Assembly: GCA_026645935.1 (NCBI GenBank)
Contig: JAPKMP010000002.1
Span: 1-64,000 of the forward strand
Length of the DNA: 64,000 bases
Direction of reading: 5' to 3'
Origin: Candidatus Villigracilaceae bacterium
Lineage (GTDB): Bacteria; Chloroflexota; Anaerolineae; Anaerolineales; Villigracilaceae
Position numbers and translations under genes: made by a program. Shown here piece after piece: positions 45,233 to 61,643 of the stretch (position 1 is its first letter; each line of letters opens with the position of its first letter). The notes beneath the pieces were generated by a model. It was given only the letters and a program-made list of their open reading frames with translations. It was not told the origin of the DNA and searched no databases.

Positions 45233-46168
45233 TTAAAACCTTGTCAGGCTGTTCCAGATCTCCGTATTCAAATGATCATGATGAGCCTGGGTAAATTCCC
45301 AAAACAGGGATTGGGCACGCGTGAAAGGATGATGGATGTGACGCGCGATGTAGACCGTCCGCTTGAGGTCGAGTTCACGCACTTCTACTTTATTAACCCG
45401 ACCAAAGGCGAGTCCGCGCGCCGCGACCATTTCAGAAACGAAGGCAATCCCTACACCGCGTTCGACCGCCATTTCGATGGCTTCGGGGTTGCCCAACTCC
45501 ATGACAACATTGAGCATGTCGGGTGTGATGCCGAATTTTTTCATCTCTCCCATGACCGTTTCACATGTTCCTGAAAATTCCTCGCGCATGATGATCTTCT
45601 GGCCCACAAGGTCGTCTGGGGTGGCCTGGCCGTTGGAAGCCCAGGGATGGTTCGCAGGAACGATCAGAAAGATTCGGTCGTCGAACAAAGGCTGGCATTC
45701 GATATCCCGGTGTTCGAGCAATTTGCTTGATACTCCCATGGGTATGTTCTGATCGCGGATGCGCTCGAACACATTATCTCGCGACATCACTTTGACGCGT
45801 GGGTGAATGGCTGGATATTCCTCCTGAAACATGGAAAGCAGCACCGGCAGCAGGTACTTTCCCGCCGAGGTCGAACAGCCGATGAGCAATTCGCCGCCCA
45901 CTTCATGGTTGATGTTGTGCAGGCTGTCTTCCATGATTCGCGCTGAACGCAGCATCTCGCGCGCCATCGGTAGAAGGGCTTCGCCCGCCTCGCATAACGC
46001 GATGGAACGTCCGCGCCGCAGGAACAGTTCCACGTTGTAGGCATGTTCCATCGCTTGAATATGCTGGCTGACCGCGGATTGCGACATGTGCAGGCGCCTC
46101 GCGGCTTTTGAGAAGTTCTTTTCCTCCGCTGCTGCAAGGAACACACGCAGGGATGAGAGTTCGATCAT
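45233..46168 (-). CDS. LysR family transcriptional regulator
   Basis: 311 residues from the ATG at 46168, with GGAG seven bases upstream; the frame to 46222 is less likely. N-terminal winged helix (LRVFLAAAEEKNFSKAARRLHMSQSAVSQHIQAME) and a CysB/CbbR-type effector domain follow, with GCSTSAGKYLLP and VERGVGIAFVSEMVAA. It lies between the rhodanese genes and the oxidoreductase on the same strand, so it probably controls this locus. A TTGACA -35-like box is at 46255-46260 on the minus strand. The effector is unknown. Confidence 0.9.
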   Translation of the reverse strand: MIELSSLRVFLAAAEEKNFSKAARRLHMSQSAVSQHIQAMEHAYNVELFLRRGRSIALCEAGEALLPMAREMLRSARIMEDSLHNINHEVGGELLIGCSTSAGKYLLPVLLSMFQEEYPAIHPRVKVMSRDNVFERIRDQNIPMGVSSKLLEHRDIECQPLFDDRIFLIVPANHPWASNGQATPDDLVGQKIIMREEFSGTCETVMGEMKKFGITPDMLNVVMELGNPEAIEMAVERGVGIAFVSEMVAARGLAFGRVNKVEVRELDLKRTVYIARHIHHPFTRAQSLFWEFTQAHHDHLNTEIWNSLTRF

Positions 46169-46293
46169 TTTTTTCTCCGTCTCTTCCGATAAGTAGCGGT
46201 GATGAGTTTGCTTGTTAATCATAAGTTCCTCTCAACTTCCCGGCTAGTGCCTATTGTCAATGACTCAAGGCTTCTGAATGGGTGGTTTGCCCC

Positions 46294-46386: not shown

Positions 46387-48102
46387 CTATTTTGTCACAG
46401 GCAGTTCCGCCGCGATCCAGCCATTCATACCGCCATTCAGGTTGCGGACGTTGGAATAACCCAGGAATTGCAGGTACATCTGGGTCATGGCGCCGCGATG
46501 ACCGGAGGCGCAGATCACCATGATGGGGGCAGCCTTGTCGGCGGGGAGTTGGGCAAGATTGGCAGGTACGTCGTTGACGGGGATGTTGACGGCGCCTTCG
46601 ATGTATCCGTTGGCGGTCCATTCTTCCACAGTGCGGACGTCGAGCATGAAGGGGACGTTCCCGGCGACCAGTTCGGTATTAAAGTCGGGGGACTTGATCG
46701 CGCCAAATCCTTCGGGCAGGTTGCTCAGGTAGTTGTCGAGAGCGGCAAAGGTGGCTTCGTCCACTTCGGGAGCAGTGCCAGCCACCGGCGCGGCGGGAGC
46801 GCCCTTTTCCACGGGCAGTTCCGCCTTGATCCATCCATTGAGTCCGCCGTTGAGGTTGACCACATCGGTATATCCAAGCAGGCGAAGAGCCATTACGCCG
46901 AGGGAGCCGCGATGACCGGATGCGCAGGTGATGACGATCTTCTCATCCTTGCCGGGAAGTTTGTCCAGATTCTTGAGCAGGTCGCGAATCGGGATGTTGA
47001 TGGAACCGGCGATGAACCCATTGGCTTCAAGTTCAGAGGGTTCGCGAACATCCACGATGAAGGGCGGGGTTCCGGCAAGAAGTTCGTTGAGTTTGTCGGA
47101 TTTGATGCTGTAATATCCGGCATCGGTAGGTAGGTTGGTGATGAAGGAAGCCATCTCACTGACGAGACCCGCCACCGGCAAGCCGGCGGCTTTCCATCCG
47201 TTGAGGCCGCCGCCAAGGTTGACGACATCGGTGTATCCCATCAAACGCAATGCCATGGTGACCATGCTGCCGCGATGACCGGAAGCGCAGAGGATGACGA
47301 TGCGGGTGTCTTTATCCGCGGGAATCTGATCCAAGTTCGAGAAGAACTCACTGAACGGCAGATTGATGGAGCCTTCGATGTAACCGTCTTTGTCCCATTC
47401 GGCTTTGCTGCGGACGTCGACAACGAAGGGCAGGTCGGAACCGGTCAGTTCTTCCGCCAGCTTGTCTGATTTGACGGAATAGAATCCTTCAGGCATGTTG
47501 ACGAAATACTCATTGAGCAACTTATACAGAGCCTGGTTTTCGATGATGGCCGTGCTGACGGATGCAGGCGCTTCGGGGACGGATCCGGTAACAAGGGGCA
47601 GTTCGGCTTTTTTCCAGGCATTGTTACCGCCGCCGAGGTTGCGTACATCGGTATACCCCAGGAGTCTGAGCGCAGCCATGACCATGCCGCCGCGATGGCC
47701 GGAGGCGCAAGTGACGACAATGGGCTGATCGAGATCGGGGAGTTTATCTAGGTTGTTCAGAACGTCGCGCACCGGGATGTTGACCGCCCCCTCGATGTAG
47801 CCGTCCGCCTCCACTTCGGAGGGTTCGCGGACGTCGAGGATGAAGATCTCCTTTTCGGCAAGCTCTGTATTCAACGCGGAAGCAGATATGGAGCCGTAGC
47901 CTTTATCAGAGGGGAGGTTGGCGGCAAGTTCGGTGAACATCGCCAACACATCCGGCGCCGTTTCAACAACGGGCGCCTCGGTGACGACCGCCACTTCCTC
48001 CGTCGGTTCAACGACCGGTTCAGCGGCTGGGGCGCCGCACGCGCCGAGCATCAAGCTCAGCACGAGAAGCAGGGCAAAAAACAGTTGGAATTTCTTCGAC
48101 AT
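46387..48102 (-). CDS. Tetra-rhodanese lipoprotein, all four active sites intact
   Basis: 571 residues. The signal LSLMLGAC has lipobox Cys22, followed by a Glu/Val-rich linker. Four rhodanese domains follow, each with LDVR or VDVR then an active loop CASGHRG: Cys132, Cys272, Cys393 and Cys531. Each is about 120 residues, separated by a repeated linker with NLP or NMPEGF and ISV/IKS. Rhodaneses carry sulfane sulfur as a persulfide on this Cys. Anchored outside the membrane, it may move sulfur between donors and acceptors. AAAGGAG precedes the ATG. Confidence 0.93.
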   Translation of the reverse strand: MSKKFQLFFALLLVLSLMLGACGAPAAEPVVEPTEEVAVVTEAPVVETAPDVLAMFTELAANLPSDKGYGSISASALNTELAEKEIFILDVREPSEVEADGYIEGAVNIPVRDVLNNLDKLPDLDQPIVVTCASGHRGGMVMAALRLLGYTDVRNLGGGNNAWKKAELPLVTGSVPEAPASVSTAIIENQALYKLLNEYFVNMPEGFYSVKSDKLAEELTGSDLPFVVDVRSKAEWDKDGYIEGSINLPFSEFFSNLDQIPADKDTRIVILCASGHRGSMVTMALRLMGYTDVVNLGGGLNGWKAAGLPVAGLVSEMASFITNLPTDAGYYSIKSDKLNELLAGTPPFIVDVREPSELEANGFIAGSINIPIRDLLKNLDKLPGKDEKIVITCASGHRGSLGVMALRLLGYTDVVNLNGGLNGWIKAELPVEKGAPAAPVAGTAPEVDEATFAALDNYLSNLPEGFGAIKSPDFNTELVAGNVPFMLDVRTVEEWTANGYIEGAVNIPVNDVPANLAQLPADKAAPIMVICASGHRGAMTQMYLQFLGYSNVRNLNGGMNGWIAAELPVTK

Positions 48103-48173: not shown

Positions 48174-49880
48174 TCAATCCTCCGGCAGGATCTTCACATC
48201 GATGTAACCGAGGAAGTTCAGGTACATCTTGGCGATCGCGCCGCAATGGCCCCTCCCGCAGATGATCACGATGGGGGAGGATGGATCAGCAGGAAGGCTT
48301 TTCAGATTATTGGGAATTTCATTTACCGGCATATAAATCGCGCCTTCGAATGCGCCGCCAACGGGGATATTCGATTCGTCGCGGACATCCAAAATCAAGG
48401 GTGCTTCGCCGCTTTCTATCATTGCCTGTAATTCACCTGTCGTAAGGGTGGACACATCTTCCGACATGGCGGTCAGATAGTCGTCGAGGAGGGTGAGGCG
48501 GGTTTCATCCACTTCCGGCTCGGGAGTCAGGATTCTTGCAGGGGTGGGAAGTCCCGGTTCAAGCGAATATCCGGCCTTTATCCAACTCCCGATCCCGCCA
48601 TCCAGGTTGAGCACGTTTGTGTACCCCAGCGACCGCAGGGCAATCGCTCCCATCGCCCCGCTGTAGCATGGTTCGCAATAGACCACGATTCTTTGATCCC
48701 TGGCGGGTAGTTTGTCAAGATTATCGAGGAGGTCTGGGATCGGAATGTTCACCGCACCTTTGATATGGCCGGTGGATGCAACTTCATCCGGCTTGCGGAC
48801 ATCGAGGAGATAAACCGGCGCTTCTGCGCGGGCGGCTTCGAGGTTTTCGGCGGTGATGCTGTAATACCCCTGTTCGGAGGGAAGGTCTATGATGAACTGA
48901 CTCAGTACGGCCTCCCAATCTTCCAACCCGGTCACTTCATTGCCTTCCGCTCTCCATTCATTCAACCCTCCCGACAAATTGAATGCACTGGAGTAACCCA
49001 AAAGGCGCAGGGTCATTGTGACGATTGAGCTGCGGTGGCCGGAAGCGCCATAGACGACAATTCGTACGTCTTTTTCAGAGGGTAGTTGATCGAGCTTCCG
49101 AAGGAATTCGGGAAAGGGAATGGAGACAGATCCATCAATGAATCCATTTGCTTCCCGTTCCGCCTCCATTCGGACATCCAGGAGGAAAATTGAACCGTTT
49201 ATTAATTCAGAAGCAAGCGCCTTTGGTTCAATGGCAAGATAATCTTCCGGCAGGTTCGATAGAAAATCATCGAGTGCGTTGAAGAGATCCCGATCCACGA
49301 TGGTTGGAGCGCTGATGACCTCGGGCGCCTCGGGCATGCCGCCCGTGATGATCGGAAGTTTTGCGTCTTCCTGAGCAGTGCGGCAATCTCCCATATTACG
49401 GACGTTGACATAGCCCAACATCTTGAGAGCCATCAACGCAAACCCGCCTCGATGTTCGGAGCCGCAATAAATCACGATTCGATCCTCGGGATCGGGCAGT
49501 TTATCCAGGTTTTTCAACAGGGTTCGGAGTGGGATGTTAACGGCTCCATCCAGATAGCCGTCACTTTTAAGTTCAGCTTGTTCGCGTACATCGAGCAAAA
49601 AGGGCGGATTGCCCGCCGCCAATTCCTTGCTCAAGCTTGGCGCGCTGACCAACCCAAAATTCGAGTTGGCTGGGATCGATTTCCAGAAATCGACAAGCAG
49701 GGGTGGAAAATCCGTGGTGACAACTGAAATTTCGACTGGGTTGGAAATTTCTATGCCAGGGGTCTCGGTTGGGAGAAATCCCTCGTCAACGGATGACGAA
49801 GCGCACGCTCCCAGCAGAATGCTGAGGATCAGAGGGAGGGAAAAGGTGATGTGAAGTGAACTTTTCATTTCCCAAGCCAT
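48174..49880 (-). CDS. Divergent tetra-rhodanese lipoprotein, one active site lost
   Basis: 568 residues, collinear with the previous protein: lipobox LLGAC (Cys26) and four rhodanese domains. The active loops differ: CGSEHRG (Cys139), GASGHRS (Gly278 in place of Cys), CEPCYSG (Cys402, with a second Cys) and CGRGHCG (Cys541, also with a second Cys). Domain 2 cannot form a persulfide, while domains 3 and 4 gain vicinal Cys. ATG at 49880 directly follows the cytochrome TAA (TAAATG), so it is coupled; an inner ATG at 49868 is possible. Confidence 0.92.
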   Translation of the reverse strand: MAWEMKSSLHITFSLPLILSILLGACASSSVDEGFLPTETPGIEISNPVEISVVTTDFPPLLVDFWKSIPANSNFGLVSAPSLSKELAAGNPPFLLDVREQAELKSDGYLDGAVNIPLRTLLKNLDKLPDPEDRIVIYCGSEHRGGFALMALKMLGYVNVRNMGDCRTAQEDAKLPIITGGMPEAPEVISAPTIVDRDLFNALDDFLSNLPEDYLAIEPKALASELINGSIFLLDVRMEAEREANGFIDGSVSIPFPEFLRKLDQLPSEKDVRIVVYGASGHRSSIVTMTLRLLGYSSAFNLSGGLNEWRAEGNEVTGLEDWEAVLSQFIIDLPSEQGYYSITAENLEAARAEAPVYLLDVRKPDEVASTGHIKGAVNIPIPDLLDNLDKLPARDQRIVVYCEPCYSGAMGAIALRSLGYTNVLNLDGGIGSWIKAGYSLEPGLPTPARILTPEPEVDETRLTLLDDYLTAMSEDVSTLTTGELQAMIESGEAPLILDVRDESNIPVGGAFEGAIYMPVNEIPNNLKSLPADPSSPIVIICGRGHCGAIAKMYLNFLGYIDVKILPED

Positions 49881-51245
49881 TTATGGGACAGCCGTCGGCT
49901 CAACGACCTGAGGCGGCACCTGGTCCACGATCACGCTTTGGTTCGCCTGCAATTCGTCGGGATAAACTTTGTCGGCGGTAAGAAAGATCGCAGCATTCCC
50001 GTGGCAGGCATTGCAGGAGGAATTCTGCGGCGTTTCCAATTGAATATTATGAGGTGTGGAATAGACCCATGTATTCTTCATATCGAAAGCCGGAAGGAGA
50101 TTCTCGCCGTAAAAATTGTAGGCGTGCTCTGCGGCAGGGACATGCCGCAATACGACATATTCATACGGACGGTGATAGTTGGGGTCCGGATTTTTACCGA
50201 TGAAGAAGGATAGATAATCGCGCTCTGTCTGATAGAACGGATTCCCTGTTTTCTCACTCACCGCCACATGACAACCGTCGCAGCTTGTGTAAGAAACCGA
50301 ATGACAGACCTGGCACGCCAACTTATCCTTGTGGATGAGATGATTCTGGTTCGTATCGTTCCATGCGCCCATCTGGGCGTGACAGGATTCGCAGGAAGGT
50401 GTTTGCCCGCCGGCATAACGGTGGTTTTTCTGTATTTTTTCGATGCCTTCCGCCTCCGTATGGCATTGTGTACACGTCGCTCCCGGGTTGTGCATATCGG
50501 CGCCGCTATGGCAGCTTACACAGTTCATCCGCTCGAGTCGAAAATGCGCGTCCCCTGGGAGCCCTTCGTGTTTTCCCAGGTATTCATTGCCAACGCGGCT
50601 TCCGTGACAGGCGGTGCAATTTTGCGACATGGACGGGGTCTTCATGACGACATGTCCCTCGACGAAACCGCCTCCCACCTGATCGGGCTGACTGATATGG
50701 CAGTCACCGCAGCTTGCGTGGCAGCTCGCACAATGATTGCCGAACATCCTGTGCATGGCTTCCTGATCGGGCGATGCGTACATGGATTCGATCTCTGCCA
50801 GGTGGTTGACCCGTGAAAGTTTTTCCTTGATCACGTCCTCTTTCACGATCACTGTTCCTTCCTCCGTGTTGGGCGGGAAAAAATGACAATCCTGGCAGTC
50901 GGTATGACAGGAACCACAGTGCGTATTGAATGTCGCCATCAGGGTTGTGACCCGTGCCGCATCGTATTCCGGTTTGGATGCGCCCCGCGCCTCAAGGATT
51001 GTCCAGTATCCGTCTAATGTTGCATGCAGGCCCGAGCCCGTCATCGCCGTCTCATAATGGCAGTCATCACAAATTTTGGTCGGGGCTGAACTCGGGTCTT
51101 CTATCAACCCGATATGTGCTGTTTCTTTATCGCTCGACGTATTATCACCGCCATGGCAGCGCGTGCAGGCGAGTTCACCGTGCGGATCGGCGGGAAAATT
51201 TTCCGTATCGACGAGCACTTTCTCCCATGGCTCCAACGGAGCCAC
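49881..51245 (-). CDS. Multihaem cytochrome c, main part (13 CXXCH)
   Basis: 454 residues with 13 CXXCH motifs (CTRCH, CDDCH, CGSCH, CQDCH, CASCH, CGDCH, CTACH, CVSCH, CTQCH, CESCH, CQVCH, CDGCH, CNACH), paired in groups like other Chloroflexota or Deltaproteobacteria electron carriers. It ends with a Pro-rich tail. As an independent protein it would start at a GTG (51245) and have no signal peptide, so it could not be matured. It is in frame with the 80-residue lipoprotein just upstream, divided from it by one UGA and three codons. The two are almost certainly one gene. Confidence 0.88.
   Translation of the reverse strand: MAPLEPWEKVLVDTENFPADPHGELACTRCHGGDNTSSDKETAHIGLIEDPSSAPTKICDDCHYETAMTGSGLHATLDGYWTILEARGASKPEYDAARVTTLMATFNTHCGSCHTDCQDCHFFPPNTEEGTVIVKEDVIKEKLSRVNHLAEIESMYASPDQEAMHRMFGNHCASCHASCGDCHISQPDQVGGGFVEGHVVMKTPSMSQNCTACHGSRVGNEYLGKHEGLPGDAHFRLERMNCVSCHSGADMHNPGATCTQCHTEAEGIEKIQKNHRYAGGQTPSCESCHAQMGAWNDTNQNHLIHKDKLACQVCHSVSYTSCDGCHVAVSEKTGNPFYQTERDYLSFFIGKNPDPNYHRPYEYVVLRHVPAAEHAYNFYGENLLPAFDMKNTWVYSTPHNIQLETPQNSSCNACHGNAAIFLTADKVYPDELQANQSVIVDQVPPQVVEPTAVP
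51228..51244 (-). promoter_or_regulatory. SECIS-like hairpin downstream of the in-frame UGA
   Basis: On the minus strand TGGCTCC-GTT-GGAGCCA forms a perfect 7-bp stem with a G-first 3-base loop. The loop begins 17 bases after the UGA, inside the 16-37 range quoted for bacterial SECIS elements. It also overlaps the alternative GTG start. Confidence 0.35.
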
Positions 51246-51254
51246 CTCGCCCCC

Positions 51255-51497
51255 TCAGCCAGCTCCCGATGATTCCTTTTCGACCACCTCTTCCGGTTTG
51301 GCGGTATCGATCAATCTCTGTTTGTCAGTATGACAATTCCTGCATTCATTAAGGAAGACACCTTCGACAATGGGGGTGGAATCAGTGGATGGATCCTCCG
51401 CGCCGGGGGTTTCTGTGACTTGAGGTACGTCCGTACTTTTGCACGAGGTCAATAGGATGACCAAAATCAACAGGATGATCGGGATTCGATTTTTCAA
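51255..51497 (-). CDS. Multihaem cytochrome c, lipoprotein N-terminal part (haem 1)
   Basis: 80 residues: TTG start with GAGG five bases upstream, signal IPIILLILVILLTSC with lipobox Cys19, a Thr/Glu/Pro-rich linker, the haem motif CRNCH, then a Lys/Glu-rich run to SSGAG and a UGA. A protein with one haem motif and an abrupt end in a linker is unlikely to be complete. The downstream frame is the same and begins with a second Gly-rich linker, so the natural product would be one lipoprotein with 14 haems. Confidence 0.8.
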   Translation of the reverse strand: MKNRIPIILLILVILLTSCKSTDVPQVTETPGAEDPSTDSTPIVEGVFLNECRNCHTDKQRLIDTAKPEEVVEKESSGAG

Positions 51498-51506
51498 ATC
51501 AGCCTC

Positions 51507-51530
51507 TATTTGTGTATATTTTCACAAATA
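51507..51530. promoter_or_regulatory. CRP/FNR-family type operator upstream of the cytochrome
   Basis: TATTTGTG, 8 bases, CACAAATA: a perfect palindrome with the TGTG-N8-CACA spacing of CRP-type sites, centred about 21 bases before the TTG start. It overlaps a minus-strand TATACA that could be the -10. Confidence 0.6.
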
Positions 51531-51718
51531 ATTTTATTTCATCCCCTTATGGCTGCAAGTGATTTATATAACCTCCGCTTATCAGATTTGCTTATGGATT
51601 TTGATAACTCCCCCCATTCAGCCGATTCGGAAAGACCAAAATTGCCCGACAAATATTTATTGCTCAAGCTGCCGGGAGCATTATTTTGTAAGTTGATCAT
51701 GGAAAAACTGATGTAAGT

Positions 51719-53669: not shown

Positions 53670-54368
53670 TTACATCGAAACTTTAAGTTTGAGATGTTCG
53701 ACCTTCTCCTCCAACGCACCGATGCGGATGCGGTGCCACATCAGGTCGATGAAGATGATGGTAAAGGCGCCGAGGGCGATGAACATGGCTGTCAGCATGT
53801 TCGGAGTCATATCGAAACCGCCTTGCGCCGCCGCACTGGCATTGCCGATGACAACCGGGTGAATGGTGCGGAAGAGGCGGATGACCATGAAGGTGATCGG
53901 CGCGCTGATTCCGCCCAGCAATGTATACACCGCTCCGAACCGCGCGCGTTTCTCGGGGTCTTCGATTCCGGCGCGGAGCATGAAGTAGGCGATGTAGATC
54001 AGTTCGGTCACGGCGGCGGTGGTAAGGCGCGGGTCCCACGTCCACCAGGTGTTCCAGGCGGGGCGCGCCCAGATCGAGCCGAGCACGATGGTGATAAAGA
54101 AGAACATGGTGCTCACTTCCACGGCGGCGAGCTCGAAGCGATCCCATTTCATATCTTTGGTGACCAGGTAGAGAATGCCCGAGACCGCCGCGAGGACGAA
54201 ACCGACCAGGGCAACCCAGGCTGTGCCGACGTGGAAATAAAACACGCGCTGGACGTTTCCCATCACGGCTTCGGTGGGGGCGTAGACCAGGGCGAAGTAG
54301 GTCGCGACGCCAAGCCCGATGATCGATAAAACATCGAGGATGGTTAGAAAGATTGGTTTTTGTTGCAT
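53670..54368 (-). CDS. ccmC: Haem exporter protein CcmC
   Basis: 232 residues with six transmembrane helices and the haem-handling WWTWDPRLTTAAVTELIY motif (WWD domain) between helices 3 and 4; conserved His residues flank it. It loads haem onto CcmE. AAAAGGAG lies upstream of the ATG. It is separated from ccmB by a 175-base gap holding only a small GGCGTT-AGAG-AACGCC hairpin (54526-54541). Confidence 0.9.
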   Translation of the reverse strand: MQQKPIFLTILDVLSIIGLGVATYFALVYAPTEAVMGNVQRVFYFHVGTAWVALVGFVLAAVSGILYLVTKDMKWDRFELAAVEVSTMFFFITIVLGSIWARPAWNTWWTWDPRLTTAAVTELIYIAYFMLRAGIEDPEKRARFGAVYTLLGGISAPITFMVIRLFRTIHPVVIGNASAAAQGGFDMTPNMLTAMFIALGAFTIIFIDLMWHRIRIGALEEKVEHLKLKVSM

Positions 54369-54543
54369 GGATAAACTCCTTTTGAGGATTTGCGATTTCA
54401 GGATTAGATTGAAGAACTCCGGCTCTTTCTGGATGTCGAGCTGAATCAGCCCATCAATCTCATCCTATCTGAAGGTTGGTTTCGCAGGCCGGGCTTTCAG
54501 CCTGATATTGTCTTTCGCATCTTTCGGCGTTAGAGAACGCCAA

Positions 54544-55233
54544 CTATTCTTCGACCACAAAATCGAAGACCATATAAGACACGGCAAGGAAGACCACGTC
54601 GTACACGATCAGGAGGTTGAGCGGCGTAAGGATCTCTTCGAGCGGAAGCCCGGCGACAATCCCGCCGCTGGCTTTGACGGACGCCAGCAGCACGGGCACC
54701 GCCACAGGGAATAACAAAATGGGAAGCAACACATCGCGTGTGCGCGTCTGCACCGACATGGCGGAGAGCAGAGTCCCGACCGCGATGTAACCGATGGAGC
54801 CGAGCAGCAATACGCCGATGAATTCCCACTGGAAGATCCGCGTTTCGTTGTAAAGCATTGCATACAAAGGCACGACGATCGCCTCGACCAAAAGCATGAA
54901 CGCCAGGTTGCTGACGGCTTTGCCGAAAAAGATCGCGGACCTATCCACCGGCGCGAGCAGGAGACCGTCCATACAGCCGCGGTCCTTTTCCACAGCCATG
55001 GAACGGTTCAAGCCGAGAGTCCCGGCAAAGGCGAATGTCGTCCACAACACTCCAGCCGTTACAGATTGCCGCACTTTCACATCCAGTTCCAGCGCAAAGT
55101 TGAAGATGAGAATAACCAACATTGAAAAGACCAGCATGGCGGAAAGCAACTCGCGGGAACGGAATTCAGCAGCGAGGTCTTTGCGCGCGATGGCGAAAAC
55201 GGCTTTGAGGAAGGATGGAGAGGGTTGGGTCAT
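54544..55233 (-). CDS. ccmB: Haem exporter permease CcmB
   Basis: 229 residues with six transmembrane helices: FRSRELLSAMLVFSMLVILIF at the start, then TAGVLWTTFAFAGTLGLNRSM, a cytoplasmic loop with EKDRGCMDGLLLAPVDRSAI, and four more helices. This is the ABC-2-like CcmB membrane unit. It begins 2 bases after ccmA ends. It provides the membrane part of the CcmAB ATPase. Confidence 0.92.
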   Translation of the reverse strand: MTQPSPSFLKAVFAIARKDLAAEFRSRELLSAMLVFSMLVILIFNFALELDVKVRQSVTAGVLWTTFAFAGTLGLNRSMAVEKDRGCMDGLLLAPVDRSAIFFGKAVSNLAFMLLVEAIVVPLYAMLYNETRIFQWEFIGVLLLGSIGYIAVGTLLSAMSVQTRTRDVLLPILLFPVAVPVLLASVKASGGIVAGLPLEEILTPLNLLIVYDVVFLAVSYMVFDFVVEE

Positions 55234-55235
55234 GA

Positions 55236-55934
55236 TCAGGCTTCCAACGCTTTCCTGTAAAAATCGAGCAGGTTGGAATTCTTGAAATCATCGCGCGTGC
55301 CAGAGGCGGCGATGACTCCTCGGGAGAGAACGTCGAACCGTGTGGCGAGGTCTTCGGCGCGGGCGAGGTCGTGAGAGGTCATGACGACGGTGCGCCCCTT
55401 CGCGGCGACGGAGCGCAGGACTTCATCGAGCATTTCCGATGCGTCCTGATCCAAACCGGTATAAGGCTCGTCGAAAAGGACAACTTCCGGGTCGTGGAGA
55501 ACCGCCCTGCCGATGGCGAGTCGTTGCTGCATGCCGCGCGAAAAAGTGCGGACGAGATCGCGTCGGCGTGGTTCCAAGCCGACCATGTTAAGGACATCCG
55601 TGACGCGTGAAGCGTGATGCGTGATGCCGTACATGCGGGCGTAGAACTGCAGATTTTCCTCCGCGGTCAGGTCGGGATACAAAAGAGGAAGATGCGAAAC
55701 CACTCCCAGCCTCGCGCGGACATTGGCAGATTCGTTCGGGAGGGAATATCCAGCCACCTTGACGCTTCCCAATGATGGGCGGGAAAGAGAGGCGAGAATC
55801 CTCAGGAAGGTGGTCTTGCCCGCGCCGTTTGGCCCGAGCAATGCCACGAATTCCCCCGGCTGGACATTAAAGTCCACCCCTTTGAGGATGGTCTTCAACC
55901 CAAAACGTTTGACGAGTTTTTTGACTTCGATCAT
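55236..55934 (-). CDS. ccmA: Haem exporter ATP-binding protein CcmA
   Basis: 232 residues. Walker A GPNGAGKTTFLR, signature FSRGMQQRLAIGRA, Walker B VVLFDEPYTGLD and a His switch in VVMTSHDLA. ATP hydrolysis drives release of haem-CcmE. Between Walker A and signature, residues ITHHASRVT are encoded by a dispersed TCACGC-rich repeat (55600-55627). It follows the cytochrome c lipoprotein, with a palindrome over that gene's stop. Confidence 0.92.
   Translation of the reverse strand: MIEVKKLVKRFGLKTILKGVDFNVQPGEFVALLGPNGAGKTTFLRILASLSRPSLGSVKVAGYSLPNESANVRARLGVVSHLPLLYPDLTAEENLQFYARMYGITHHASRVTDVLNMVGLEPRRRDLVRTFSRGMQQRLAIGRAVLHDPEVVLFDEPYTGLDQDASEMLDEVLRSVAAKGRTVVMTSHDLARAEDLATRFDVLSRGVIAASGTRDDFKNSNLLDFYRKALEA
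55600..55627. repeat. Dispersed CATCACGCTTCACGC-type repeat inside ccmA
   Basis: The run GTGACGCGTGAAGCGTGATG (plus strand) encodes ITHHASRVT on the minus strand. Similar sequence lies at about 57840-57885, upstream of the cytochrome gene. Confidence 0.55.
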
Positions 55935-55944
55935 TCAAGATCGT

Positions 55945-55976
55945 AATTAGTAATTGGTAATTACCAATTACTAATT
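55945..55976. repeat. 32-bp perfect palindrome overlapping the cytochrome stop
   Basis: AATTAGTAATTGGTAA plus its reverse complement without spacer. The minus-strand TAG stop (55971-55973) of the cytochrome c lipoprotein lies inside it. Confidence 0.9.
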
Positions 55977-57824
55977 GCCCTTCCTCTTTAGCACGCCCGT
56001 CAATTCTGCTCGGCGTTTTTTGTAGGCTTCGTCCGATATCTTCCCGGTGCGATGCAGGTCGTCGAGGGCGATGACTGCGTCCATAATGGACTCGGTATCT
56101 TCATAAGGTTCATCTTTCTCGTCATCCCCTTCCACATCGTCGTTTATTTTATTGCGGTCGCGCAGAAACATAAAGAGGCCGGCGAGGATGAGCGTCACGC
56201 CCAGGGCGCCGACGCCGATCAGAACAGTCTGGTTTTGGGTGATATCCGGCGACTCGGCAACATTTTGCGGTGCGCCTGTGAGCGTGAATTCAAAGGAGGA
56301 ATCCTTATCGATGCCGGGAGATGTGTATATATGGAAGTTCGCGCCCTGCATGGACTGAATTCCGCCATCGATGAAGGAGGCGCCTTTTGCCTCCACTCCT
56401 TCTGGCAGGAAAAGCGTGATCGAGCCGATGGGAAGCAGCGCGGTTTGAATGATCTTGGTTTCCTTCGATTTTGGAATTGTGGCGAAGGCGATCAACCCAT
56501 ATGGCTCTTCGCTGGGCGGCATGGCAAAACCGTCTTCGGTTGGGACGAAGGGTGCGCTGTTATCTGTGGTCTCGAAGCCGAGCCCGGTTGCGCCTTCAGG
56601 GAAGGAGATGAACGGGATATTCTGCGTGTCCGCCATTTTTATGAGGACGGTTTCTTCGCCTTCGTTCGTAATGAAATACACCGCAAAGATCTGCGCATCC
56701 TGCCCGGCAAGGTCGAAGAAGATCTGCAATTCCCTCACCTGCAAGGCGGATGTATCGTCTGTGGTTGGGAAAATGACAATGGGCTCAATCACGAGTTCGG
56801 AGGCTCCTGCGGGCACAACAGCAAACTCCGATTGATAATTCATGCCATTCACGTCCACTTCGGTGAGATAGATCTGGCTTTCGACGATCTCGACCTCAAA
56901 GACATAACTGCCGTCGGGGTTTACGTCGCCTTGTTGATTCAAAATCTCGGTGGGTCCGGCGCTGGGGTCTGTGCCGTGATCATATCCATGCAGTGTGACC
57001 TTCAAACCGGAGGGGAGGTCTTCGCCAGTGCGGTTCTCGATCTGGCCGCGGATGATGCTGACGGCCGCCTCTTCCGTGATTTGTGCCTGAGGCGTGCCTT
57101 CGACGGCTGTGCCTTCCGCTGACGGAGTCGCGGCCTCGGCGTTGACCTGGGTCTCGGTCGCTGAAACAGCCACCGGCGCGGGAGGAAGCGCGAACGTCAA
57201 CGTGCGGATATATGCTGCGACTGCGTACGCTTCATCTTCACCGAGTCCGCTCCCAAAGGCGGGGAAGTTCCCGCTCCCTTCGCGCATCATTCTTACCAGG
57301 TCGTCTTCAGACAACGCCGACATCATTTGAAGGTTGGTGAAGGCTTCGCTGCAGTCACCGCAGTTTTTCTCGAAGAGAGTTTTGCCGAGTTCGATCTGTT
57401 CGTTCGTGCTATGAAGAGTGAGGGCATACGCCACCACATCCCAACGCTCCTGGTCGGTGAGACTCATGAACGGCGGCATGAATCGCTCAAGGTTGCCTTG
57501 TGTGACCGTGGCATACCATTTTGCGGGAGACGCGTCGCGCGCAAATTCGGGCAGGCCGATCGGAATGACTGAAACGGGCAGGTCCGCGCTCTGCGGTCCG
57601 TCGCCCAGGCCTTTTTCGCCGTGGCATGCCGCGCATTTTTCTGTAAAGATGGCTTTGCCGTTTTCGATGTCCGGCGCCTGCTCGGGGTAGAGCGGACCGA
57701 GCGTGGGAACCGGCGTCGGCGGAATGTAATTGGGCGGAGGCGTGACATCCGCCGCGAGCGTGACGTTGCATGCGGCGAGCAGGAGGGTTCCAATTGCTAA
57801 AAGGACGATGTGGCGTAAATTCAT
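55971..57824 (-). CDS. Cytochrome c lipoprotein with a degenerate second haem domain
   Basis: 617 residues from the ATG at 57824 (GAGGAA upstream). Lipobox LLLAAC with Cys19; Thr/Pro linker; cytochrome c domain with CAACH (64-68) and MPPFM as likely axial Met. A second domain has CGDCS at 155-159, with Ser for His, so haem ligation is likely lost or altered. Beta-rich domains, one transmembrane helix (VLIGVGALGVTLILAGLFMFL) and a SHOCT-like tail (TGKISDEAYKKRRAEL) end it. It is inside the ccm operon. Role unknown; perhaps an electron carrier or scaffold. Confidence 0.8.
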   Translation of the reverse strand: MNLRHIVLLAIGTLLLAACNVTLAADVTPPPNYIPPTPVPTLGPLYPEQAPDIENGKAIFTEKCAACHGEKGLGDGPQSADLPVSVIPIGLPEFARDASPAKWYATVTQGNLERFMPPFMSLTDQERWDVVAYALTLHSTNEQIELGKTLFEKNCGDCSEAFTNLQMMSALSEDDLVRMMREGSGNFPAFGSGLGEDEAYAVAAYIRTLTFALPPAPVAVSATETQVNAEAATPSAEGTAVEGTPQAQITEEAAVSIIRGQIENRTGEDLPSGLKVTLHGYDHGTDPSAGPTEILNQQGDVNPDGSYVFEVEIVESQIYLTEVDVNGMNYQSEFAVVPAGASELVIEPIVIFPTTDDTSALQVRELQIFFDLAGQDAQIFAVYFITNEGEETVLIKMADTQNIPFISFPEGATGLGFETTDNSAPFVPTEDGFAMPPSEEPYGLIAFATIPKSKETKIIQTALLPIGSITLFLPEGVEAKGASFIDGGIQSMQGANFHIYTSPGIDKDSSFEFTLTGAPQNVAESPDITQNQTVLIGVGALGVTLILAGLFMFLRDRNKINDDVEGDDEKDEPYEDTESIMDAVIALDDLHRTGKISDEAYKKRRAELTGVLKRKGN

Positions 57825-57887
57825 GAATTCCTCGGTGGGTGTGATGCGTGAAGAGTGATCCGTGAATCGCGCTTCACGTTTCACTTG

Positions 57888-59573: not shown

Positions 59574-61643
59574 TTAATCCGCCGCGCTTGTCTGTCGATT
59601 GACAACACCCACCTTGCGCCGGATGGGTTCGTCGGCCGGATCTTTATCGGGCCAGGCGGCGAAGATGAGACCGAGCAGGAAGGTGAGACTGCCGATCCAC
59701 AGCCAGTTCACCAGCGGGTTGACGTAAATCTTGAACGTCGCGCCCTGACTGGAAACAGGCTGCCAGTCCACAAGGAGGATATACAGGTCATCTCGCAGCG
59801 TGGCGTGTTGACCCGGGATGGTCATATTCTGTTGCGAGTCGTAGTAATAGTCGATGCGCGGGAAGAGCTGGCCAATGAAGACTCCGTTCTCGTAAATATC
59901 CACGACGGAGCGGGTGTAGTTCACGCCTGCACCAAAGTCATCCCATGAGGCGAGTTCGCGGTATTCCACGCGGTATTCGCCCAGTTCCAGGGATTCGCCC
60001 GCGGCGATCGTTCCTTGCGTTTCCTTCTGGAAGATCTCGATTCCCAGAATGCCGATCGCCATCAGCGCCATGCTGATGTGGATGATGTATCCTCCGTAAC
60101 GGCGGCGGTTGCGTCCCATCAGGCGGCCGAGGGAGGTGAAAAAGTTTTCGTTTTGGGCTTTCATCCTTGCGTTTGCACCGCGCCAGAATTCATGCACCGT
60201 TGCGGACAGCACAAAAGCGATGAGGAAGAATCCGATCAGGGCGTAGACGTTTTTTGTATAGGTGAAAACCAGCACAACGGTCAAAATGGAAGCGAGGAGG
60301 GCGGACTTCCACAAAGCGCGGCCGAGAGTCTGCACGGTGGAATGTCCCCACGCCGAAAGAGGCGCGATCGCCATCAAGAAAAGCAGGCCGGCAAACAATG
60401 GACCCGTCGCGCGTTCATAGTAGGGGGGACCAACAGTGATTTTCGTTCCGGTGAAAAGTTCCGATGCCAGCGGCGAGATCACGCCCCAAAAGCAGACGAC
60501 AAGGATGCCCATGAAGAGCAGGTTATTGAAAAGGAACAACGCCTCGCGCGAAAGCATGGATTTCATTTCCGTTTCGCTTTTCAATTCGGGCCAGCGTTTG
60601 ATCAGCAAAGCCACGGAGGAAATGAGCGTCAGCGAGACGAATGCCATGAACATCGGACCGATCGGGCTGTTCGCGAACGCATGCACCGATGAAAGAACGC
60701 CTGAGCGCGTCAGGAATGTTCCAAATACGACCAGCGAATAGGTCAGGATGACGAGGATCATGTTCCAGTGTTTGAGCAGGCCGCGTTTTTCCTGGATCAT
60801 GACGGAATGCAGGAACGCGGTCCCCGTCAACCACGGCATGAATGCTGCGATCTCGACCGGGTCCCAGCCCCAATAACCGCCCCAGCCCAGCACATCGTAT
60901 GCCCAGCGCCCGCCAAGGACGAGTCCCATCGAGAGGAAGAGCCACGCCCACAACGTCCAGCGGCGCGTGATGCGGATCCAGCGGTCATCGGTGCGGCCCG
61001 TGATGAGCGCGGCCATCGCAAAGGCGTAGGGGATGACGAAAGAGACAAAGCCGAGATAAAGCATGGGCGGATGAATGACCATGCCCGGGTGGCGCAGAAG
61101 CGGATTCAATCCCTGACCGTCTTGCGGGGTGAACACGGTCGCACTGGCGGATGGAGCAAACAAACTTGGAACGACCTGCCCGCCGACATCCCAGAAACGC
61201 GTGAACGGATTTTCGTAGAAGACCACCATGCCGACAAAAAATGCAAGTGTGATGGAGGAAACCACGATCACCCACGGCAGGAATTCAAGGTCGCGGTCCC
61301 ATTTGCGGATGGTGACTGCGGAAGTGAACATCGCCAGCAGCCATGCCCAGAACAAAAGCGAACCCGCCTGTCCGCCCCACCAGGCGGTCACTTTTAGGTA
61401 TGTGGGCATGCTTTGGCTGGTCACTTCGTACACGAATGAAACCTCGAAGTGATTGTTCACCAGCAGGTAGATCAAAACCGCTGCCGAAATCGAAATGAGT
61501 GGAAAAGTGAGCAATTGGGCGCGTCGCGCGCTCTCCACGAGGGAGGCGGATCCGTTGCGGACTCCGTACCAGGCGGCGAACCCGCTGTACACCGTGACGA
61601 TAAAACTTACCAATAAAACGCCGTATCCAAATTCTGGGAGCAT
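59574..61643 (-). CDS. ccmF: Haem lyase CcmF
   Basis: 689 residues, about 14-15 transmembrane helices. The WWD domain is seen in LGWGGYWGWDPVEIAAFMPWL, with conserved His nearby (MVIHPPMLYLGFVSF and FLHSVMIQE). The C-terminal outside domain is large (GTIAAGESLELGEYRVEYRE). It joins haem from CcmE to the CXXCH cysteines. The ATG at 61643 follows about 95 bases of gap including the ccmE terminator. Confidence 0.95.
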   Translation of the reverse strand: MLPEFGYGVLLVSFIVTVYSGFAAWYGVRNGSASLVESARRAQLLTFPLISISAAVLIYLLVNNHFEVSFVYEVTSQSMPTYLKVTAWWGGQAGSLLFWAWLLAMFTSAVTIRKWDRDLEFLPWVIVVSSITLAFFVGMVVFYENPFTRFWDVGGQVVPSLFAPSASATVFTPQDGQGLNPLLRHPGMVIHPPMLYLGFVSFVIPYAFAMAALITGRTDDRWIRITRRWTLWAWLFLSMGLVLGGRWAYDVLGWGGYWGWDPVEIAAFMPWLTGTAFLHSVMIQEKRGLLKHWNMILVILTYSLVVFGTFLTRSGVLSSVHAFANSPIGPMFMAFVSLTLISSVALLIKRWPELKSETEMKSMLSREALFLFNNLLFMGILVVCFWGVISPLASELFTGTKITVGPPYYERATGPLFAGLLFLMAIAPLSAWGHSTVQTLGRALWKSALLASILTVVLVFTYTKNVYALIGFFLIAFVLSATVHEFWRGANARMKAQNENFFTSLGRLMGRNRRRYGGYIIHISMALMAIGILGIEIFQKETQGTIAAGESLELGEYRVEYRELASWDDFGAGVNYTRSVVDIYENGVFIGQLFPRIDYYYDSQQNMTIPGQHATLRDDLYILLVDWQPVSSQGATFKIYVNPLVNWLWIGSLTFLLGLIFAAWPDKDPADEPIRRKVGVVNRQTSAAD

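Follow-up and report, generated by a model that had tools for sequence, protein, structure and literature searches.

Selenocysteine (Sec) in a multihaem cytochrome was proposed in 2007 for Geobacter GSU2937-2936 (PMC1914089), later designated ExtKL and clustered with a gene for the rhodanese ExtH and a LysR gene (PMC6148476, PMC5877670), and selenite and tellurite reduction have been discussed for the Geobacter ext genes. GenBank-annotated Sec also appears, in the selenoprotein table of PMC13188914, for an octahaem cytochrome of the tetrathionate reductase family (TIGR04315).

We analyzed a window of 64,000 nucleotides (contig JAPKMP010000002.1, positions 1 to 64,000) from a Candidatus Villigracilaceae bacterium of the class Anaerolineae (Chloroflexota), in which a multihaem cytochrome gene is interrupted by a single in-frame TGA. 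Its relevant features are the following:

45233-46222, minus strand: LysR regulator; best NCBIfam hit NF040786 (selenium metabolism-associated LysR), below cut-off (225.3 of 250 bits)
46387-48102, minus strand: second rhodanese lipoprotein, four domains, all with CASGHR loops
48174-49880, minus strand: first rhodanese lipoprotein, four domains (PF00581, four stretches); ATG directly after the cytochrome stop
49881-51497, minus strand: predicted selenocytochrome gene; one 538-residue frame, Sec at residue 81, 14 CXXCH motifs
51228-51244, minus strand: predicted bacterial SECIS (bSECIS) hairpin; 7-bp stem, loop GUU, 17 nt after the UGA
51255-51257, minus strand: UGA very probably read as Sec; TGA in 97 of 103 homologues
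51330-51344, minus strand: haem motif 1, CRNCH, 5' of the UGA, from the translation
51441-51497, minus strand: signal peptide ending in lipobox LLTSC, read from the translation
53670-55934, minus strand: three ORFs, ccmC-, ccmB- and ccmA-like cytochrome c maturation genes; only the ccmA model TIGR01189 above cut-off
59574-61643, minus strand: ccmF/nrfE-like haem lyase (E 2e-121, below the curated cut-off)

Like ExtKL (NF040886), the window protein is a multihaem cytochrome with a predicted Sec and an annotation split by TGA (PMC5877670, PMC6148476, PMC1914089), and both have a rhodanese lipoprotein and a LysR regulator as neighbors. In the published descriptions, however, ExtKL has five haems, against 14 in the window protein and mostly 10-14 in its family; the TGA of ExtKL follows the haem part, whereas here it lies between haems 1 and 2; and the LysR gene is upstream on the opposite strand in Geobacter but downstream on the same strand here. 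Membership in ExtKL, considered as an assignment, is unsupported: the NF040886 model was absent from the hits of all 40 homologues compared at E 0.1 and, at E 1, from those of the window protein. ExtH/ExtKL is the closest analog, and the window cytochrome may, by this analogy, work likewise. The TIGR04315 model matched weakly in only 3 of 40 homologues (best E 5.5e-4). Models for ExtM, ExtN, ExtO and ExtS gave weak matches in 25, 7, 7 and 4 of the 40 (best E 4.6e-11, 1.4e-12, 2.6e-12 and 0.0082, respectively), and on the window protein ExtM and ExtS stayed far below cut-off; such matches likely stem from shared CXXCH repeats. No NCBIfam model scored above its cut-off on the window protein, solved structures gave weak matches only (best E 1e-6, to a cytochrome c chain), and an AlphaFold model of the cytochrome from three sequences had a pLDDT of 28. 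A plasmid tblastn search with the Sec region gave no match, and a literature search—with most subscription papers outside its reach—returned no title on a Sec cytochrome of Chloroflexota; the family was not seen in the consulted passages of the 2026 selenoprotein review (PMC13188914), and a search of PMC12013277 by text terms was without match.

The cytochrome gene starts at a TTG (51497) and ends at a TAA (49883-49881), and the sole interruption of its frame is the UGA at 51257-51255, which comes after 80 codons and is itself codon 81. The next three codons, GGG GGC GAG, lead to a GTG (51245), the start of a separate 13-haem ORF. One CXXCH motif lies 5' of the TGA and 13 lie 3' of it; Pfam Cytochrome_C7 matches the post-UGA part at 45.3 bits (gathering 24.8), and the CXXCH motifs together with the export signal identify a multihaem c-type cytochrome. 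A crude lipobox pattern matches 71 of 96 cytochrome homologues. A preliminary description, made from the letters of the window alone, had reported this split frame, and its coordinates, single TGA, 17-base spacing and hairpin all proved exact on the minus strand. It left four explanations side by side (Sec insertion, stop read-through, a recent nonsense mutation and a sequence error) and proposed an alignment of homologues across the linker and a search for selA, selB, selC and selD. From sequence comparison, we conclude that the UGA very probably encodes Sec (Sec81) of one exported lipoprotein cytochrome with 14 haem motifs, positioned between haems 1 and 2.

The window protein, with its TGA read as a residue, matched 33 of 101 genomes including its own, among which G040, G045 and G062 were weak (E above 1e-4) and G079 contained a distant cytochrome. 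An N-terminal 95-residue profile (14 rows, cut-off E 1e-8) was applied to samples of the class (396 genomes) and of the phylum (400 genomes). It matched in 74 of the 396 Anaerolineae, the selenocytochrome family being present in 52 of 222 sampled genera of the class, and in 12 of the 400 genomes of the phylum sample, 10 shared with the class search and two from outside the class. Exactly one stop, always TGA, is present in 71 of the 76 listed class matches (the window's own included), as in 13 of 13 matches of the phylum search. After removal of nine second hits elsewhere in the same genes, 112 distinct profile rows gave an aligned set of 103 homologues, near-identical relatives being counted separately. 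The aligned codon is TGA in 97 of these, Trp (TGG) in two, and Leu, His, Val and Phe in one each, in a count that split frames at TAA and TAG and so is blind to them, whereas the read-through searches were not. An in-frame UGA conserved among homologues, as expected of a selenoprotein, is thus found in 97 of 103. Identity to the window protein is 40-80% in 40 diverse members, in which G-x-G-U-x-G and a downstream P, E, W and K are either unchanged or conserved at 90% or more. The alignment that had been proposed across the linker shows no Cys at the Sec site among the 103 homologues, a usual but not obligatory selenoprotein trait; nearly all selenoproteins have Cys homologues, according to the review PMC13188914.

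Several other readings of the codon were considered. A genome-wide code with TGA as Trp was rejected, as TGA terminates 9 of 33 hand-picked long ORFs of the window (TAA 15, TAG 9). A nonsense mutation or sequence error is of negligible probability, nothing having been found in its favor, since the same TGA recurs in many separate genomes and families, including two genomes outside the class. Mechanical ORF calling yields two genes, a one-haem lipoprotein and a 13-haem cytochrome starting from GTG 51245, with the UGA as a true stop, and a G-rich stretch does lie directly 5' of that GTG; yet a genuine stop would be expected to change into TAA or TAG and the stop-tolerant searches list TGA only, the residues from UGA to GTG are conserved, the downstream half begins without a signal peptide, and two relatives have a rhodanese fused ahead of the cytochrome in a frame that still crosses the UGA, all of which makes this arrangement extremely unlikely.

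The reading as Sec is further consistent with the RNA just 3' of the codon. The rule given for bSECIS elements in PMC13188914 specifies a loop of 3-9 nt, a stem of 4-16 bp, a G in the first two loop bases, a distance of 16-37 nt from the UGA and an MFE of -7.5 or lower. The window hairpin, TGGCTCC-GTT-GGAGCCA, falls within this rule, with a GUU loop at 17 nt, a perfect 7-bp stem (arms 51244-51238 and 51234-51228) and a fold of the 48 nt from the UGA at -18.0 kcal/mol. Among the 96 TGA sequences long enough to test, the best hairpin has a G among its first two loop bases in 95, and its loop starts 17 nt 3' of the UGA in 92; in L119 a loop of 7 nt begins at 15 nt, slightly short of the 16-37 nt range, L084 and L091 carry a shifted hairpin with the loop at 20 nt, and in L081 the usual hairpin is not the best one. 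When the 48 nt from the UGA are folded, all 96 reach -10.3 kcal/mol or lower; the core pairs tested are retained in the lowest-energy structure of 81 and are missing from that of the other 15, L084 and L091 included. Rfam gave no match for 50900-51600 at E 1.

Covariation was tested on 83 distinct rows with 500 shuffles and five measures. Paired cells make up 94.3%, the covariation score is 0.243 versus 0.080 in shuffles (0/500 as high) and 0.012-0.035 when the hairpin is slid by 1-3 columns, and cells changed on both sides number 46 versus 16.8 in shuffles (0/500 as high), while two weaker measures gave three double-change pairs (54/500 as high) and six further pair types (21/500). Pair 16-28, CG in 46 rows and GC in 36, occupies first codon positions, where coupling through the protein could be argued, an objection countered by pair 15-29, which uses the silent third base of codon +4. 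Codon +4 is GTC in eight rows, seven with GGN at codon +9 and the eighth (L084) on the shifted hairpin; three rows end codon +4 in A, two of them with GTA at +9 and one (L091) again on the shifted hairpin. On a quick tree built without the hairpin region, three C/G swaps are independent and both sides changed together in 3/3, too few events for significance (sign test p 0.25). Silent sites in the hairpin are frozen (Pro CCG 90/90, Leu TTG 85/88, Glu GAG 93/95) relative to gene-wide mean modal-codon fractions of 0.53, 0.57 and 0.69, respectively, means that include the hairpin columns. These patterns indicate that the hairpin is under selection as RNA.

The machinery for Sec insertion is present in the source genome (98.67% complete), where selA, selB, selC and selD were all found: tRNA-Sec (66.7 bits), selB (358.3), selA (536.8) and selD (361.9) score above curated cut-offs, and ARAGORN also finds the tRNA-Sec. 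The selD gene of this genome (G000:C30:11005-11934, L131) itself holds an in-frame TGA, and serves with its hairpin as a positive control: this type of selenoprotein is already known, and the geometry matches. Read by eye, its hairpin has the loop GGAT and the stem AGCGC/GCGCT, 17 nt after the TGA, although the computed fold of a longer selD stretch is a different structure. The two elements share the 17-nt spacing and a small G-first loop but differ in stem sequence, and the cytochrome hairpin is also frozen at silent sites over many genomes. selB scores above cut-off in 47 of 50 relatives, a set that includes cytochrome-less genomes, and in 37 of 41 genomes of a second set, with the source genome (G000) and G086 in both. 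Three TGA genomes (G401, G256 and G300) have no selB above cut-off, and each has selA or tRNA-Sec; from these sequences, the missing selB genes are likely gaps in metagenome-assembled genomes (MAGs). Among the four initial explanations, Sec insertion is strongly supported by the homologue TGA, the hairpin covariation and the sel genes, and the same evidence renders mutation, sequence error and generic read-through very unlikely. Ordinary sense codons in homologues and missing sel genes had been named as evidence against recoding; the genome has the sel genes, and sense codons occur in only 6/103 homologues, scattered among Sec rows on the tree.

The six non-TGA rows, placed among TGA rows, represent at least five changes on the tree, with L127 and L128 on long branches and of unsure position. 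The non-Sec genomes (G086, G160, G148, G359, G205 and G351) have tRNA-Sec in 6/6 and selA in 5/6 (not G205), so that Sec loss is not due to loss of the machinery. Such a loss had been hinted at as the source of sense codons by G148 (Leu; no selB at E 1e-50), and this reading was dropped as G148 has selA and tRNA-Sec. Both Trp rows (L023 and L102) keep a hairpin: in G160 it is retained, and a congener (G127) has TGA and a rhodanese, while in G086 it is compensated, with one codon deleted. In G351, one contig carries both a Sec copy and a paralog with Phe at the Sec site (L156); 7 kb separate this paralog from the rhodanese of its Sec sister.

The TGG codons together with the retained hairpins in L023 and L102 would fit a UGA read through as Trp, by near-cognate or suppressor decoding, with a hairpin that merely stimulates read-through. 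However, TGG is found in only 2 of 103 homologues though one step away, the other sense states are Leu, His, Val and Phe, the hairpin spacing is that of selD in the same genome, the genome holds a full sel gene set, and both Trp loci are without an intact adjoining rhodanese gene, unlike Sec loci. We consider Trp read-through very improbable.

The gene neighborhood was scanned in 40 wide loci with a rhodanese profile built on five rhodanese domains encoded in the window. Of 35 Sec loci, 34 have a rhodanese gene within 2 kb of the cytochrome and on its strand; in the exception (L158), the contig starts ~350 bases ahead of the cytochrome match. None of the 5 non-Sec loci has such a gene (L154 having only ~1.3 kb on one side). 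The rest of the 40 loci (444,713 bases) gave no rhodanese match. The two window rhodaneses, used in tblastn, have matches in 18 and 19 of the first 20 loci. Across independent pairs that differ in Sec, the rhodanese goes with Sec in 5/5 (L108 left out), for a sign test p of 0.0625, which is the limit for five pairs. Next to the Trp cytochrome of G086, tblastn picks up a rhodanese-like stretch of 31 residues (E 6e-8), perhaps a remnant. The preliminary description held that the Gly-rich linker argues against a catalytic Sec; as an argument against a functional Sec, this is left unsupported by the conserved motif around U and by the absence of the rhodanese that accompanies Sec loss.

Of 117 rhodanese domains, 112 retain the active-site Cys, and every one of 37 ORFs, with the fusions counted, has it at least once; in the first rhodanese lipoprotein of the window (48174-49880), one of the four loops is without Cys (YGASGHR). 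A crude lipobox pattern occurs in 17 of 35 neighboring rhodanese ORFs, and export is therefore supported for only part of them. In two relatives, the rhodanese and the Sec cytochrome are fused in one frame: L080:3-2489 (plus strand), from outside the class, has two rhodanese domains (Pfam), Sec at residue 414 of the fragment and a C-terminal hydrophobic anchor, in a frame open at the contig edge, and L117:1-2070 (minus strand) has one rhodanese domain. These results strongly suggest that Sec and rhodanese act together. Their tie—by neighborhood, joint absence and fusion—is new here.

Other neighbors are less constant. The first 20 wide loci include LysR in 11, NrfD in 7, a 4Fe-4S partner in 9 and an 8-haem cytochrome in 7, LysR being a large family whose counts do not imply orthology. 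At L149:10773-13867 and similar loci, an 8-haem cytochrome, a DsrO/QrcC-like 4Fe-4S protein and a QrcD-like NrfD stand beside Sec cytochromes, and these neighbors likely constitute a quinol link. In the window, the LysR gene at 45233-46222 perhaps encodes a selenium-responsive regulator of the cluster, judging from its best model, and ccm-like genes lie upstream of the selenocytochrome. The stretch 55971-57884 encodes a cytochrome-like protein with one CAACH and, in a second similar stretch, CGDCS without the CXXCH His.

SelB very probably decodes the UGA as Sec at the bSECIS hairpin just 3' of it. For the function, a more tentative scheme can be drawn, in which the neighboring rhodanese lipoproteins would carry sulfane sulfur (or selenium) to Sec81, which would bind it in a selenyl-sulfide or a comparable adduct. 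The haems would then reduce and release the bound sulfur or selenium, with electrons supplied, in some relatives, by the NrfD/4Fe-4S/8-haem quinol module, and the protein would be a respiratory or detoxifying chalcogen reductase. With substrate and electron direction as stated, we regard this scheme as possible rather than probable. A similar standing falls to a real Sec that instead serves selenite or tellurite reduction, or plain outer-surface electron transfer, rather than reduction of sulfane sulfur: the Geobacter extHIJKL cluster joins a rhodanese lipoprotein to a LysR gene and a cytochrome with a predicted Sec, and the window LysR is closest to a selenium-metabolism LysR model. Rhodanese domains, however, are best known for carrying sulfane sulfur.

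If sulfane sulfur or selenium is indeed delivered to Sec81, the Sec in a multihaem wire might, somewhat speculatively, be a docking point for rhodanese-borne sulfur or selenium, with the selenyl-sulfide reduced outside the cytoplasm, in a unit that arose separately from Geobacter ExtH/ExtKL and would represent a new kind of chalcogen reductase. Although present in 52 of 222 sampled genera of the class, the family is easily overlooked, because gene finders cut at the UGA and searches for Cys/Sec pairs would fail where no Cys form is seen. Given the tie to rhodanese, what Sec does in cytochromes can be tested directly.
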